A stretch of 64,000 bases of DNA, from NCBI RefSeq assembly GCF_028473745.1, contig NZ_CP101137.1, positions 1 through 64,000 of the forward strand. The letters are read 5' to 3'. Source of the stretch: Streptomyces sp. M92. Its GTDB lineage: Bacteria > Actinomycetota > Actinomycetes > Streptomycetales > Streptomycetaceae. The position numbers and the translations under genes are program-made. The notes under the pieces are model-generated. The model worked only from the letters and a program-made list of their open reading frames with translations. It searched no databases and was not told the origin of the DNA. Of this stretch, positions 3,253-40,105 are shown piece after piece (the stretch's first letter is position 1; each line of letters opens with the position of its first letter).

Positions 3253-4209
3253 TCAGTCGATCGACGGCTTCTCGCGGCGTTCCTGGGCCGGGACCGACGC
3301 ACCGCCGCCGTTGCCGTTGCCCGAAGCGCCGCCCAGGCCGCCGATGTTGCCCATGGCGCCGGAGAGGCCCTTGAGGGCGTCGCCGATTTCGCTGGGGACG
3401 ATCCAGAGCTTGTTGGCGTCGCCCTCGGCGATCTTCGGGAGCATTTGGAGGTACTGGTAGGAGAGCAGCTTCTGGTCCGGGTCGCCGGCGTGGATGGCCT
3501 CGAAGACGGTGCGGACGGCCTGGGCCTCGCCCTCGGCGCGCAGAGCGGCGGCCTTGGCCTCACCCTCGGCGCGCAGGATCTGGGACTGCTTCTCGCCCTC
3601 GGCGCGCAGGATCTCGGACTGGCGGACGCCCTCGGCCTGGAGGATCGCGGCGCGCTTGTCCCGGTCGGCGCGCATCTGCTTCTCCATCGAGTCCTGGATG
3701 GAGGTGGGTGGTTCGATGGCCTTGAGCTCGACGCGGTTGACGCGGATGCCCCACTTGCCGGTGGCCTCGTCGAGGACGCCGCGCAGGGCCGCGTTGATCT
3801 CCTCGCGGGAGGTGAGGGTGCGCTCCAGGTCCATGCCGCCGATGATGTTGCGGAGGGTGGTGACGGTGAGCTGCTCGATGGCCTGGATGTAGCTGGCGAC
3901 CTCGTAGGTCGCGGCGCGTGCGTCGGTCACCTGGTAGTAGATGACGGTGTCGATGTTGACGACCAGGTTGTCCTGGGTGATGACCGGCTGCGGCGGGAAG
4001 GGGACGACCTGTTCGCGCAGGTCGATGCGGTTGCGGATGGTGTCGATGAACGGGACGACGATGTTGAGGCCCGCGTTGAGGGTCCGCGTGTAGCGGCCGA
4101 AGCGCTCGACGATGGCGGCGCTGGCCTGTGGGATGACCTGGATGGTTTTGATCAGGGCGATGAAGACCAACACCACCAGGATGATCAGAACGATGATGAC
4201 CGGCTCCAT
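3253..4209 (-). CDS. SPFH/band 7 membrane protein (stomatin/QmcA-like)
   Basis: Encodes a 318-residue flotillin/stomatin-type protein. An N-terminal membrane segment (residues 4-22, VIIVLIILVVLVFIALI) is followed by the SPFH domain (IVERFGRYTRTLNAGLNIVVPF), a long heptad-like region with repeated LRAEGE words (residues about 187-230), and a glycine-rich tail. Such proteins oligomerise on the inner membrane and organise lipid microdomains or control membrane proteases. An NfeD protein is encoded just upstream in the same direction, the classical partner pairing. Confidence 0.92.
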   Translation of the reverse strand: MEPVIIVLIILVVLVFIALIKTIQVIPQASAAIVERFGRYTRTLNAGLNIVVPFIDTIRNRIDLREQVVPFPPQPVITQDNLVVNIDTVIYYQVTDARAATYEVASYIQAIEQLTVTTLRNIIGGMDLERTLTSREEINAALRGVLDEATGKWGIRVNRVELKAIEPPTSIQDSMEKQMRADRDKRAAILQAEGVRQSEILRAEGEKQSQILRAEGEAKAAALRAEGEAQAVRTVFEAIHAGDPDQKLLSYQYLQMLPKIAEGDANKLWIVPSEIGDALKGLSGAMGNIGGLGGASGNGNGGGASVPAQERREKPSID

Positions 4210-14910: not shown

Positions 14911-17442
14911 ATGAGCGCGTCCACGAGCGTCGGCGCCGAGGGTTACGGCACGAGGGTGCCGTGGGGCGATGTCCTGATGTCCGCGATCGCCTCCGTGAGC
15001 TGGGCGTTGATCGGGATGGCGGGCACGGCGGCGCTCGGCCTGCGGCTGCTGGGCGCGGACGCGGCGGGCGCGCTGGGTCCGATGACCGCGGCGGTGGTGG
15101 CGCTCGGTGCGGGTGGTTCGGTGTCACCGGCCGGCGATGTGTCCGTCTTCGGACTGGAAGGGGCACAGGCGCACACGGCCGTCGAGATCACGCCACTGGG
15201 CGTGGGGCTGGTCGGTGCGCTCTTCCTGTCCTTCTTCTTCCTACGGTCCCTGCGGGCGGCCGGAGTTGTGGTCTCCCCGGCGGAACTACTGGCGCGCGCC
15301 GGTGCGGTGGTCGCCCTGTTCCTGGCGATGCTGGGCGGACTGGCCTGGGTGGGTCACGATGTCGTCACGATCGACGGCGGCTCGCTGGGACTGGACGATC
15401 TGCCGGAGGGCGGTACCGGGGGCATCGAGATTCCCGGGCTCGGCGACGTGGGGGACATCGGGGACATCGGCGGGCTGCTCCCCGACCGGATCGGCGACCT
15501 GGTCGACGCCGAGGCCGCGGTCGGCTTCTCCGTCGACACGGGACCGACGCTGCTGGGCGGGCTGGTCTGGTCCGTCGGGGTCCTGCTGGTCGCGCTGCTG
15601 GCCTCGCGCCGCACTCCCCTGCCGCGCGGGTGCGAGGCGGTGCACCGGGTGGTGCGTCCGGCAGTGTCCGCCCTGGTCACGGTGGCGCTGACGGCGGTCG
15701 CGGCCGGTTGGGCGGCCGCGGCGTACGCGGCGATCGGCGACGACCATCCGCGGCGGGTCTTCGGCGCCGCGTTGCTGGGCGCGCCGAACGGGGTCTGGCT
15801 CGGTGTTCCGCTCGGCCTGTTCGTGCCGTGGGAGGGGCGGGCCACGGGCGCACTGGTCCGAGTGCTTCCGGATCCGCTGGACGAGTTGCTGGGCGCCGGC
15901 GGGCGGGAGCCGGTGACGCTCGGGCGGCTCGCGGAGCTGGACGGGCGGGTGTGGCTGCTCGGGGTGGCCGCGGCGCTGGTGATGCTGCTGGCCGGCGCGC
16001 TGACGGCGGTGCGGACACCCGTGGCGCCCGATGAGGCGCGTTCCGCGGCCTTCGCCGGGCGGTGTGCCGTGCGGCTGGGCATCGCGACCGCGGTGGCGCT
16101 GGGGCTGCTGGCCCGGCTGACGGAGGTGTCCGTGGACGCCTCGCTGTCCGTCCTCGGCATCGACGCGTTCGGCGCGGGCATCGACCTGCGCGGGCAGTTC
16201 GGAACGGCACTGCTGCTGGGCGCGGTGTGGGGCGCGGGCGCGGGGGCCGCCGGGGCGCTGCTGGCGGGGGTGAGCGGGGCGGCCGGGGTTCGGGCGTCGG
16301 CGGTGGCACGGAGTGCCGGGGTGGTGGGGGCGGGGGCTTCGGGTGGGGGTGGCGGGCACGGGGGCGGCGGGGGTGGCACGGGCGGGGGTGACGGGTTCGC
16401 TGGTGCCGGGTTCGCTGGGGCCGGGGGTGGTGTCCCGGGCGGGGGCGACTCCAGTGGTAGGCACGGCGGTACCCCGCGCGGGAGCAGCGGCATCGGTGGG
16501 GCCGGAGGCGGGAGCCCGGGCGGGAGCGACGACGCCACTGGTGGGCGAGGAGGCACCCCGCGCGGGAGCAGCGGTGCCGCCGAGGCGGGAGGCGGTGTCC
16601 CGGGCGGGAGTGGCCACGCCAATAGTGGACGCGGGGGTGGCAGTGGCAGGGCTCCCGGCGGTGCGGCTTACGCGGGGCAGCCCTCGGGGCCGTACTGGCC
16701 GGAGCCTCCGCACCGGCCGCCGAACCCGGACACCAATCCGTACCTGCGGTCGGAGAGGGCGGGGGAACCAGAGGACGCACGGCCGGAGTGGGCGCCCACC
16801 CGGCCGCCGTCCGATTCGGGCCGCGCTGCGGGGAGCGGGCCGCCCGCACCCGGCGTTCGGCCGCACGGCGCCCCTGGGTGGCCGCCAGACGGCGGAGACG
16901 AGCAGCCCGGCAGCGAAGACCGGCGGACCGGCGACGGAAACAGGTCGCCCGGCGAAGAGCGGTGGACCGGCGGTGGGGACGGGCCATACGGCAGCGAAGA
17001 CCGGCCGCCCGACGACCGAAGCAGGCCGCCCGCACCCGGCGCGCAACCCCACGGCAACCCTGAGCGGCCGCCACACGGCGGAGACGAGCAGCCCGGCACC
17101 GAAAACCAGCGGCCCAGCGGCGGAGGCAAGCCGCCCGGCGGTGGAGACGGGCCATACGGCAGCGAAGACCGGCCGCCCGGCGACCGAAGCAGGCCGCCCG
17201 GCGAAGAGCGGTGGACCGGTGGTGGAGACGGGCCGTCCGGAAGCGGCGAGGACGATCCGGGTGACGATGACGTGTCCGGCGCTCCCACGGTCATCGGGCC
17301 GCTGGGACCACCGCCGGGAACGCCGCGGCGGCCCCTGCGTCCCGGGGAGCGGCCGGGCAGGCCGGCGCCACGCTGGGGCGAGGGCCCGCCACCGCCTCCT
17401 CCCCCGCCTCCGGCGCCCCCTCGGCGGCCGAAGGGCGGATGA
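14911..17442 (+). CDS. Streptophobe-type multi-pass membrane protein with long disordered tail
   Basis: Encodes an 843-residue protein of unknown function. The N-terminal half (residues about 20-465) has some ten or more hydrophobic helices and starts with WGDVLMSAIASVSWALIGMAG, which I recognise as the streptophobe family restricted to Streptomyces and relatives. The C-terminal 370 residues are Gly/Pro/Arg-rich, with repeated units (GTPRGSSG, GGGDGPYGSEDRPP, GEERWTGGGDG) and a final run of eight prolines. The repetitive tail probably varies among strains. It is divergent from the FHA-ABC gene. Confidence 0.8.
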   Translation: MSASTSVGAEGYGTRVPWGDVLMSAIASVSWALIGMAGTAALGLRLLGADAAGALGPMTAAVVALGAGGSVSPAGDVSVFGLEGAQAHTAVEITPLGVGLVGALFLSFFFLRSLRAAGVVVSPAELLARAGAVVALFLAMLGGLAWVGHDVVTIDGGSLGLDDLPEGGTGGIEIPGLGDVGDIGDIGGLLPDRIGDLVDAEAAVGFSVDTGPTLLGGLVWSVGVLLVALLASRRTPLPRGCEAVHRVVRPAVSALVTVALTAVAAGWAAAAYAAIGDDHPRRVFGAALLGAPNGVWLGVPLGLFVPWEGRATGALVRVLPDPLDELLGAGGREPVTLGRLAELDGRVWLLGVAAALVMLLAGALTAVRTPVAPDEARSAAFAGRCAVRLGIATAVALGLLARLTEVSVDASLSVLGIDAFGAGIDLRGQFGTALLLGAVWGAGAGAAGALLAGVSGAAGVRASAVARSAGVVGAGASGGGGGHGGGGGGTGGGDGFAGAGFAGAGGGVPGGGDSSGRHGGTPRGSSGIGGAGGGSPGGSDDATGGRGGTPRGSSGAAEAGGGVPGGSGHANSGRGGGSGRAPGGAAYAGQPSGPYWPEPPHRPPNPDTNPYLRSERAGEPEDARPEWAPTRPPSDSGRAAGSGPPAPGVRPHGAPGWPPDGGDEQPGSEDRRTGDGNRSPGEERWTGGGDGPYGSEDRPPDDRSRPPAPGAQPHGNPERPPHGGDEQPGTENQRPSGGGKPPGGGDGPYGSEDRPPGDRSRPPGEERWTGGGDGPSGSGEDDPGDDDVSGAPTVIGPLGPPPGTPRRPLRPGERPGRPAPRWGEGPPPPPPPPPAPPRRPKGG

Positions 17443-37650: not shown

Positions 37651-37774
37651 TCCGGTGGTGAGTCCCGCAACGCCCGCTCACGGTCGGCCGCTTGGCGGAG
37701 GAACCGTTTCGCCTCAGCGCCGTGCGGCCCCTGCCGCACCGGAGTGTCGGTCGTGGCCCGTATCCTCATGGACC

Positions 37775-38767
37775 ATGCTCGAAGACCGCACGACCGCAGC
37801 GCCGTCCGCCACGGCGTGGCCGGCCGCGTATCCGCAGGGGTACGCGGTCGTCGACGTGGAGACCACCGGACTGGCCCGCGACGACCGGATAATCTCCGCG
37901 GCCGTCTACCGTCTGGACGCCCGCGGCGAGGTCGAGGACCACTGGTACACCATGGTCAATCCCCAGCGGGACCCGGGGCCGGTGTGGATACACGGTCTGA
38001 CGAGTGAGGTGCTCCGGGACGCGCCGCTCTTCCCGGACGTCGCCGAGGAGTTCGCCGCCCGTCTGGACGGGCGGGTGCTCGTCGCGCACAACGCCGTCTT
38101 CGACTGGCAGATGATCGCCCGCGAGTACGCCCGCGCGAGGCGTGAGGCCCCGGTGCGGCAACGGCTGTGCACCATCGCGCTGTCCAAGGCGCTGGCCCTG
38201 CCGCTGCCCAACCACAAGCTGGAGTCGCTGGCCGCCCACTTCGGCGTCGTACAGCGGCGGGCGCACCACGCGCTGGACGACGCGCGGGTGCTGGCGGAGG
38301 CGTTCCGGCCGAGCCTGCTCGCCGCGGCGGCGGGAGGTCTGCGGCTGCCGTTGCACGAGTGCCGGCCGCTGACCGAGTGGTCGGACGCGCCCGCCCCCCG
38401 GATCGGACAGCAGGCCGGTTACGGCGGCTACCGGCCGACGAGTTGGCGCCCCTCCCGCAAAAGGCCCGCATGCCCCTATCCCAACCCGGGCCGGTACGAA
38501 GCGGGCAAAAGACTCAAGCAAGGCATGAGGGTCGCCTTCTCGGGTGACACCTCCGTCGAGCGGGACCTGCTGGAGGACCGTGCCACCGAGGCCGGGCTGC
38601 ACGTCGCCACGAGTCTGTCCCGGCTGACCAGCCTGCTGGTCACCAACGACCCGGACTCGGGCACGTCGAAGGTGGTCAAGGCGCGCCAGTTCGGGACGCC
38701 GGTGGTGGACGAGGCGGCCTTCGGCCAGCTCCTGAGGGACGTCGAACCGGCGGACGCGGAGCCCTGA
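37775..38767 (+). CDS. DEDDh 3'-5' exonuclease with C-terminal BRCT domain
   Basis: Encodes a 330-residue DnaQ-like protein. The exonuclease domain (residues about 22-190) contains the Asp/Glu of VVDVETTGL, the Asp in LVAHNAVFDW and the His/Asp of AHHALDDARV, making it the DEDDh type. A Pro/Arg linker leads to a BRCT domain (residues about 250-325, GMRVAFSGDTSVERDLLEDRATEAGLHV...TPVVDEAAF). Such fusions are frequent in Streptomyces and probably act in DNA repair or proofreading; the exact role is not known. Confidence 0.92.
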   Translation: MLEDRTTAAPSATAWPAAYPQGYAVVDVETTGLARDDRIISAAVYRLDARGEVEDHWYTMVNPQRDPGPVWIHGLTSEVLRDAPLFPDVAEEFAARLDGRVLVAHNAVFDWQMIAREYARARREAPVRQRLCTIALSKALALPLPNHKLESLAAHFGVVQRRAHHALDDARVLAEAFRPSLLAAAAGGLRLPLHECRPLTEWSDAPAPRIGQQAGYGGYRPTSWRPSRKRPACPYPNPGRYEAGKRLKQGMRVAFSGDTSVERDLLEDRATEAGLHVATSLSRLTSLLVTNDPDSGTSKVVKARQFGTPVVDEAAFGQLLRDVEPADAEP

Positions 38768-38873: not shown

Positions 38874-39107
38874 ATGGCGACATGCGAAGTCTGCGGCAAC
38901 AACTACGGAATGACCTTCGAGGTCCACGCCCAGGGAGCGGTGCACGTCTTCGACTGCTTCTCCTGCGCGATCCACCGGATGGCCCCCATCTGCGAGCACT
39001 GCCGCGTGCAGATCATCGGCCAGGGCGTCGAGGTCGAGGGCCACTGGTACTGCGGCGCCCACTGCGCCCGCGCGGAGGGGAGGGCGGGGATCGTCGACAA
39101 GGTCTGA
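38874..39107 (+). CDS. Small zinc-ribbon protein
   Basis: Encodes 77 residues with three paired-cysteine motifs: CEVCGNNY at residues 4-11, CFSCAIHRMAPICEHC in the middle and YCGAHC near the end, the last like a LIM or treble-clef element. Eight cysteines and several histidines could bind two zinc ions. It is conserved in actinobacteria but of unknown function. The ATG at 38874 gives the expected MATCEVCG start. Confidence 0.85.
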   Translation: MATCEVCGNNYGMTFEVHAQGAVHVFDCFSCAIHRMAPICEHCRVQIIGQGVEVEGHWYCGAHCARAEGRAGIVDKV

Positions 39108-39171: not shown

Positions 39172-39261
39172 GTGCTCCCCGCCGACGCGGGAATGCTCCG
39201 CGGTGGACCCCACGGCGCTACAAGCCGGTCGTGTACTCCCCGCCGACGCGGGGCCACGGCC
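39172..39261 (+). CRISPR. Relic type I-E CRISPR unit: two repeats and one 32-bp spacer
   Basis: Repeat 1 at 39172-39200 and repeat 2 at 39233-39261 share the core CTCCCCGCCGACGCGGG, which forms the CCCCGC/GCGGGG stem of actinobacterial type I-E repeats. The period is exactly 61 bp, that is 29-bp repeat plus 32-bp spacer (39201-39232), the standard I-E geometry. The 3' parts differ (GAATGCTCCG in repeat 1, decayed in repeat 2). No further repeat occurs one period away on either side and there is no cas gene in the window, so it is a fossil or solitary mini-array. Confidence 0.6.
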
Positions 39262-39313
39262 CTCGCAGGGACCTCCCCGCGAGGGCCGAGCGCGGTCAAG
39301 GTACCGTCGACGC

Positions 39314-40105
39314 GTGTACCGCTTCCTCCTGTCCCGCCAGTGGGTGATCCTCACCCTGATCGCCGTGCTGCTCATCCCCACGATGATCTGGCTGGGCTTC
39401 TGGCAGATGCACCGCTACGAGGATCGCACCGCCCGGAACGACCTCGTCGCGCGGGCGCTCGACGCGGCGCCGGTGCCCGCCGAGTCGCTGACCGCTCCCG
39501 GCAAGAAGATCACCACCAGTGAGCGGTACCGGACCGTCACCGCGCAGGGGCGCTTCGACACGGACCGCGAGGTCGTCGTCCGCCGCCGCACCGACTCCGA
39601 CGACAACATCGGCTACCACGTGCTGACCCCGTTCGTGCTGGACGACGGCAGGATCCTGCTGGTCAACCGGGGCTGGATCCCCGCCGACGGCCCGAGCCAG
39701 ACCGCGTTCCCCGAGATCCCCGCACCGCCCGGCGGAGAGATCACCGTCACCGGGCGGCTGATGCCCGACGAGACGACCGAGGCGAGCGGCATCAAGGACC
39801 TGGAGGGCCTGCCGGACCGGCAGATCATGCTCATCAACAGCGAGCAGCAGGCCGAGCGCCTGGACGCCCCGGTGCTCGGCGGGTACGTCGCCCTGATCGA
39901 GCCGGAGCCGGAGAACAACACCCCGGAGCGGATCGGCAAACCCGGCAACGCGGACGCCGCGCTGAACTTCGCGTACGCGATCCAGTGGTGGCTGTTCGCC
40001 GCGGCCGTACCGGTCGGCTGGTGGTTCCTGGTCCGTCGCGAGAAGCGCGAACGTGAGGCCGCCGAGGACGTGGCACCGGCGCAGGCGGAACCCGCGAAGG
40101 TCTAG
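39314..40105 (+). CDS. SURF1-family cytochrome oxidase assembly protein
   Basis: Encodes 263 residues with a helix at each end: FLLSRQWVILTLIAVLLIPTMIWLGFWQMHRYEDR (residues about 4-30, with the family's GxWQxxR element) and NFAYAIQWWLFAAAVPVGWWFLVRR near residue 225. Between them lies the extracytoplasmic SURF1 domain (residues about 70-200, GYHVLTPF, VNRGWIPAD). SURF1 proteins help insert heme a into cytochrome c oxidase. The GTG at 39314 is chosen to give the family start; a relic CRISPR unit lies just upstream. Confidence 0.92.
   Translation: MYRFLLSRQWVILTLIAVLLIPTMIWLGFWQMHRYEDRTARNDLVARALDAAPVPAESLTAPGKKITTSERYRTVTAQGRFDTDREVVVRRRTDSDDNIGYHVLTPFVLDDGRILLVNRGWIPADGPSQTAFPEIPAPPGGEITVTGRLMPDETTEASGIKDLEGLPDRQIMLINSEQQAERLDAPVLGGYVALIEPEPENNTPERIGKPGNADAALNFAYAIQWWLFAAAVPVGWWFLVRREKREREAAEDVAPAQAEPAKV

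Follow-up and report, generated by a model that had tools for sequence, protein, structure and literature searches.

CreR mini-CRISPRs, like CRISPR repeat-like elements, are found at cas operons, whose genes they regulate. New CRISPR loci are reportedly created by off-target Cas1-Cas2 integration, as Nivala is said to have found in 2018. In toxin-antidote and cleave-and-rescue elements, which are engineered or eukaryotic, a killer is physically linked to a resistant version of its target, and we know of no natural CRISPR case of either kind. In CreTA, a crRNA-like RNA, CreA, has been described to arise from degenerate repeats, one or two in number, at ectopic sites away from arrays, and to repress a toxic RNA of the same genome (PMC9458426). 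In Pelobacter carbinolicus, an I-E spacer against the organism's own hisS gene has been discussed as self-targeting (PMC6990116). Spacers against relatives' chromosomes are reported for Haloferax mating (Turgeman-Grott 2019, as cited in PMC11434293) and against relatives' chromosomal DNA for Porphyromonas (PMC5570325); in both, CRISPR aimed at the chromosomes of related species is proposed to limit gene exchange.

Here, we describe a one-spacer CRISPR unit, termed U1, in Streptomyces sp. M92. The window, i.e., the whole stretch of DNA analyzed, covers the first 64 kb of the 7.68-Mb contig C1; a second contig, C2, comprises 110 kb. U1 shares with the I-E arrays on C2 the 29-nt repeat, the stem and handle and the spacer length of 32-33 nt, but differs from them by its single spacer, its fixed chromosomal site, a spacer that fits an allele of the same locus and a repeat 2 tail that overlaps a terminator-like hairpin. 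With CreTA it has the ectopic, degenerate repeats in common. However, CreA targets a promoter in its own genome, that of a neighboring toxin, whereas the neighbor of U1 is the housekeeping gene SURF1, with an own match of 16/32, the cas genes lie on C2, and the genome of U1 yielded no full target. CreR mini-CRISPRs are likewise ectopic mini units with a conserved place, yet differ by their site at cas operons and by regulating cas. The Haloferax and Porphyromonas spacers apparently belong to ordinary arrays, as far as the cited accounts go, whereas the crRNA gene of U1 sits at the very locus whose other allele it matches. A literature search covering mainly open-access papers returned no description of guide units placed at a locus whose other allele they match. 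The features of the locus are as follows:

38874-39107, forward strand: small cysteine-rich gene upstream of U1 (77 aa, from the sequence)
39172-39200, forward strand: repeat 1, 29 nt, with the hairpin and a 3' end forming the putative 8-nt crRNA 5' handle; two mismatches to GTGCTCCCCGCNNNNGCGGGGATGGTCCS
39193-39253, forward strand: predicted mature crRNA with 8-nt handle, 32-nt spacer and 21-nt hairpin tail, based on repeat anatomy and analogy with I-E processing
39201-39232, forward strand: spacer, 32 nt, matching the SURF1-start allele of unit-less relatives (27/32 with an AAG PAM to locus L075)
39233-39261, forward strand: repeat 2, first 21 nt intact bar one base, last 8 nt diverged
39257-39288, forward strand: strong terminator-like hairpin directly 3' of repeat 2, without a T run, 15-nt arms 93% complementary
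39290-39324, reverse strand: SURF1-start site of the window that corresponds to the target, with AAG retained and a 16/32 match
39314-40105, forward strand: SURF1 gene downstream of U1 (Pfam SURF1, 3e-44; NCBIfam NF050123), GTG start assigned from conservation

The 17-mer CTCCCCGCCGACGCGGG occurs exactly at 39175-39191 and 39236-39252, 61 nt from start to start, within a stretch of 20 nt common to both repeats with one mismatch. It is the sole exact 17-mer pair at this spacing in the window. The loose core (up to three mismatches) yielded nine window matches compared to 4.89 expected, so that by itself it does not exceed chance, whereas the exact pair does. A scan of exact 17-mer pairs at spacings of 40-89 gave three places in the window besides U1, and exact direct repeats of at least 17 nt lie at 3526-3609, 16471-16574 and 16908-17005 with spacings of 66, 84 and 81 nt. 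Repeat 1 contains the CCCCGC-loop-GCGGGG hairpin and an ATGGTCC-like handle characteristic of I-E repeats, and its hairpin is present in the fold (z = -1.62). Repeat 2 retains the I-E stem and has lost the handle; its hairpin is also found in the fold at z = -0.60, which is not above shuffles. The terminator-like hairpin, folded as 39253-39296, reached z = -4.59. U1 starts 64 nt past the stop codon of the small cysteine-rich gene, for which no Pfam or NCBIfam family was matched, and lies on the same strand as both neighbors.

I-E repeats and cas genes were located in the whole genome. The query CTCCCCGCNNNNGCGGG gave 69 matches, compared to one for the reversed control. Contig C2 holds four arrays with 25, 20, 3 and 11 repeats (59 in total, counted from the match list), mostly CTGCTCCCCGCACCCGCGGGGATGGTCCC, whose hairpin stem and handle are the same as in U1. 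It also carries the I-E genes for Cas3, Cse1 and Cas7e, and lantibiotic-type dehydratase, LanC-like and methyltransferase genes lie between its CRISPR arrays (C2:45165-51745, L144). A partial Cas1 match above the cut-off was obtained in the genome as well. All Cse1 and Cas1 matches fall on C2 or at C1:5.6 Mb, i.e., U1 at C1:39 kb is not adjacent to cas genes. At C1:5600574-5601817 (L159, L160), two adjoining partial Cse1 matches resemble a broken second I-E cas locus. Outside C2, the full 29-nt repeat with up to three mismatches is found at only four to five chromosomal places, including repeat 1 of U1 (two mismatches), and these correspond to four one-spacer units, U1, U2, U3 and U4. In all four, repeat 2 departs further from the full repeat than repeat 1 does, mainly through divergence at its 3' end. 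The shared stem and handle, together with the I-E cas genes in the genome, support a type I-E origin of U1 as judged from sequence.

The observations in a preliminary description of this locus are confirmed by these data, with some corrections. The two copies 61 nt apart with 29+32 geometry were confirmed at 39172-39200 and 39233-39261, and the core assigned to the I-E repeat hairpin recurs with the same stem and handle in all 59 repeats on C2, repeat 1 lying within two mismatches. The divergence seen in the 3' part of repeat 2 affects its last 8 nt, which overlap the terminator-like hairpin. As to the statement that no other repeats or cas genes lie nearby, no further I-E repeats or arrays occur in the window, but U2 lies just past its end (C1:64529-64618) and I-E cas genes are present on C2. 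The location between housekeeping genes, pointed out as unusual, proved to be the key to the interpretation.

We compared the site across other Streptomyces using 80 orthologous loci retrieved via the upstream gene (the best 80 of at least 548 confirmed relatives) and by searching 392 Streptomyces genomes with the unit DNA, 27 of which matched at E 1e-10. Five other Streptomyces (L080, L082, L091, L136 and L169) carry a complete U1 with a homologous 32-nt spacer at this site, L082 being equal to L163, whose printed sequence is identical. Single-repeat remnants occupy the site in L070/L167, L085, L096, L164, L165 and L174. Repeat 2 of L169 carries a compensated stem change. Judged by this distribution, U1 is old and has been kept.

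The predicted target of the U1 spacer is the antisense of the SURF1 start in the unit-less allele, where AAG is followed by CGGTACACCCCACGAC-type sequence. The window spacer mismatches L075 at positions 5, 6, 15, 18 and 24, and the other five U1 spacers reach 26-28/32, each with AAG. For all six, the best match is a locus without a unit. Among 81 loci, the target (at least 26/32) was present in 55 of 71 short alleles, 54 of them with AAN, compared to none of ten long alleles (Fisher p = 2.8e-6), where short denotes every locus not hand-listed as unit, single-repeat or none and includes L088 and L097, which have no clear anchor, as well as L121 and L130 with weak hairpins. The ten long alleles comprise five with the unit, three with a single repeat and two with none. 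A whole-genome search for the target (up to three mismatches) was positive in 10 of 24 genomes, by coordinates at the SURF1 start; the target was absent from all five unit-bearing genomes searched and from all six read as single-repeat or none. It is also missing from three further genomes; in two of these, G016 and G020, the short allele has diverged. A candidate sensitive allele is hence found in relatives (55/71 short alleles, 10/24 genomes), and carriers show a putatively linked, non-matching one (target in 0/10 long alleles and 0/5 unit genomes). Within these loci, U1 and the allele bearing the predicted target exclude each other. Among the best 80 of at least 548 relatives, the locus whose flanks on both sides are most similar to those of the window (L066, 97%) and the one nearest to L082 (L078, 95-97%) are short and carry no unit, and the nearest loci of L080, L091 and L136 are of mixed states. 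Thus, two of five have nearly the same flanks as their nearest relative but another state of the intergenic segment.

In I-E Cascade, every sixth crRNA base is described as flipped out and unpaired (PMC5904413). Mismatches between spacers and their best matches were counted by position. In 25 spacers treated as independent, which were hand-picked and include four with their own locus as best match, positions 6, 12, 18, 24 and 30 (6n) were mismatched in 56 of 125 cells, compared to 31 of 550 where the position is not a multiple of 3. The odd multiples of 3 (3, 9, 15, 21 and 27) gave 19/125 (6n versus these, Fisher p = 4.6e-7), and the six possible period-6 combs gave 11, 8, 19, 7, 5 and 56 mismatches. 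For U1 alone, the values were 20/30 at 6n, 5/30 at odd multiples of 3 and 4/132 elsewhere, from six related sequences. Codon wobble was considered as the cause and rejected: it may give the 19/125 at multiples of 3 but not the 6n excess of 56/125, because AAN in GC-rich genes yields a period of 3, not 6. The six U1 spacers differ from each other, and each finds a natural haplotype with one or two mismatches outside 6n. Summed over all six, these amount to nine, whereas 2000 simulations of drift averaged 23.2 and never fell below 18. The mismatch counts show that spacer changes avoid the bases expected to pair in Cascade. Such a 6-nt mismatch comb offers a general test of whether an orphan spacer is still selected to guide Cascade.

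We consider U1, with a probability of roughly 0.64, to be a gene for a single crRNA that is under selection, is directed against the alternative allele at its own locus and is linked to an altered allele that the crRNA does not match. The unit would be transcribed and the transcript cut by Cas6e at both hairpins, and the crRNA would load into Cascade built from the cas genes on C2. Cascade-Cas3 would then attack incoming or co-resident DNA bearing the other allele, while the linked allele change would spare the carrier. U1 might in this way act as an allele guard, protecting its locus against replacement through homologous recombination, and could favor its own spread in a recombining, multigenomic mycelium. 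Streptomyces hyphae are multigenomic, and this would make removal of the other allele effective. The logic would be that of toxin and antidote, with the crRNA as toxin and the changed target as tightly linked antidote. Whenever unit and target met in one genome, whichever of the two entered, the combination would be removed, so that linkage between unit and allele would be favored. The linked killer and resistant target liken this reading of U1 to toxin-antidote and cleave-and-rescue elements; drive by U1 is a proposal from sequence. If active, U1 would be a natural CRISPR device defending or spreading one allele against another. Cse1 was detected in three of five U1-bearing genomes searched, and across all sites in 14 of 25 unit-bearing compared to 7 of 24 other genomes (p = 0.085, a trend only), with several carriers having no Cse1.

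The other one-spacer units bear on how far this reading may extend. U2 (C1:64529-64618, L141), at a distance of 529 bases from the window end, is located between cobN and a gene for a cobaltochelatase ATPase; its repeats are 61 nt apart, and its spacer in this genome matches L221 at 29/32 with AAG. U3 (C1:4227376-4227473, L146) has a 40-nt spacer and 69-nt spacing, and no target was found within 12 kb of its locus read. U4 (C1:6985191-6985280) is flanked by thrS and a HIT-domain gene; in 48 further loci anchored on the HIT gene, no unit was seen by eye or scan. The aminoacyl-tRNA synthetase at the thrS unit recalls the hisS spacer of Pelobacter, for which the relevant text mentions nothing on another allele of the spacer's locus (PMC6990116). 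A further unit site lies near the ffh start (L310, L331, L332 and L336), with spacers matching the ffh region; the ffh neighbor was verified in L332 and assigned by homology of matches in the other three. A one-spacer pattern search matched 45 of 392 genomes, most rows being arrays. Within ~600 nt of one locus (L337, G260) lie three distinct repeat pairs, the two members of each being 61 nt apart, while the gaps between the pairs differ in length from this spacing. Spacer length is 32 nt in 26 of 29 units, the others being L200 (33), U4_L206 (31) and U3 (40); the 32-nt tables exclude U3 and U4_L206, and the L200 spacer was trimmed to 32.

Matching to another locus at 25/32 or better with AAN was seen for 33 of 40 unit spacers, and five had no match of 25/32 among the loci compared. 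As a control, 80 array spacers reached at most 23/32 with AAN, and one reached 25 without AAN, in 271 loci with array loci excluded, a set slightly smaller than that used for the unit spacers. Another locus fitted better than the own one for 34 of 40 unit spacers, with three fitting their own better and three ties; the relatives' value is the best of many, which favors relatives over own. Outside U1, 18 of 27 best matches sit in loci carrying a unit with a different spacer, and the description as a unit-less allele is therefore limited to U1; this makes both the reading of U1 and its extension to a class slightly less probable. Own targets of L220 and L223 keep AAN and 27-28/32, which is hard to square with carrier immunity. 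It is possible, and we put it forward tentatively, that single-crRNA genes beside thrS, ffh, cobN and SURF1 form a natural toxin-antidote or gene-drive-like CRISPR class in Streptomyces, each linked to an uncuttable version of its target, clearing mycelia that recombine or are multigenomic of alternative alleles and thereby holding or spreading its own locus. CRISPR units are usually read as records of viruses and rarely as regulators; the set suggests a third use, as guides against the other allele of their own locus. If true, they would be a natural counterpart of linked killer-rescue designs and an allele-by-allele recombination barrier between Streptomyces species, and might explain one-spacer 'orphan' CRISPRs.

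A different history, which we regard as unlikely, is that the spacer was taken by chance from a gene next to the unit, through off-target or primed acquisition, and that the target was mutated or replaced in a relic of self-immunity drifting ever since. The own neighbors of the units do show partial matches with AAN: 16 of 29 spacers beat every spacer substituted from the other sites on their adjacent genes (U2 9/11, U4 6/11, U1 1/6, U3 0/1), and many U2 and U4 spacers match adjoining genes with AAN just 5' of the match. Array spacers compared with their own flanks were above the null in 1/28 cases and in 0/28 with AAN. A permutation on pattern-found units gave 4/16 above the null and 1/16 with AAN; it is uninformative in that its null contained same-site spacers, but counts against a simple own-neighbor match. 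Compared with their flanks, own target windows show higher divergence on average (+0.037, Wilcoxon p = 0.016, 22 units); the difference is clear for 11 of the 22 and has the opposite sign in five. Single-repeat remnants also exist. Yet drift predicts mismatches everywhere, as opposed to 56/125 at 6n versus 5-19 in any other comb, the U1 spacers track natural haplotypes, and the place of the source right beside the unit is left unexplained.

Regulation offers another account, in which U1 would act like CreA or CreR and its crRNA would tune the own SURF1 gene by partial pairing at its start. In E. coli, AAG together with five seed bases often suffices for binding of Cascade (PMC5904413). The own SURF1-start site keeps AAG, CGGT (four seed bases) and bases 7, 8 and 10, so that weak Cascade binding and regulation stay conceivable, and the units do adjoin the gene they match. 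Against this, pairing of the U1 spacers with their own alleles is far poorer than with those of relatives, the own AAN-restricted match of the window spacer (16/32) equals the mean of swapped spacers (16.0), and matches at the other sites fall in coding regions on either strand. We judge this account improbable.

The preliminary description had taken U1 for a fossil, i.e., the decayed end of an ordinary array, and its spacer for a possible record of an old invader, and the comparisons support neither view. A decayed array might be suggested by the diverged last 8 nt of repeat 2, the single spacer and the lack of I-E repeats or arrays elsewhere in the window. However, the unit recurs with a 32-nt spacer in five other, distant Streptomyces, the stem change in L169 is compensated, every U1, U2 and U4 locus read has one spacer and none has more, and the 6n comb with its avoidance of pairing positions is a signature of selection, all of which makes this origin very improbable. 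Ordinary immune memory against a phage or plasmid, suggested by the spacer geometry and the AAN beside the match, is scarcely credible, as no match covering 80% of the spacer was found among 50,697 phage and 72,556 plasmid records (partial matches at E up to 10 in 17 and 7 records, respectively) and the match that was found is the homologous chromosomal allele of relatives. A search of the own genome for targets with up to three mismatches gave 16 matches, one being the spacer itself, compared to 52 for the reversed control, and none was convincing.

Off-target integration, as attributed above to Cas1-Cas2, resembles the present case in leaving an isolated repeat-spacer-repeat at non-array sites, but predicts two equal repeats and sources anywhere, whereas the repeats of U1-type units differ at the 3' end and their matches are local. 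Duplication of the terminator by off-target Cas1-Cas2 was rejected, as it leaves unexplained why the canonical handle is in repeat 1 only. An RNA hairpin inside the spacer was also considered: an imperfect dyad co-varies between species by eye and was attributed to a dyad in the target allele. Elsewhere in the window, positions 37655-38767 encode a protein fusing an RNase T type exonuclease domain to a BRCT domain.
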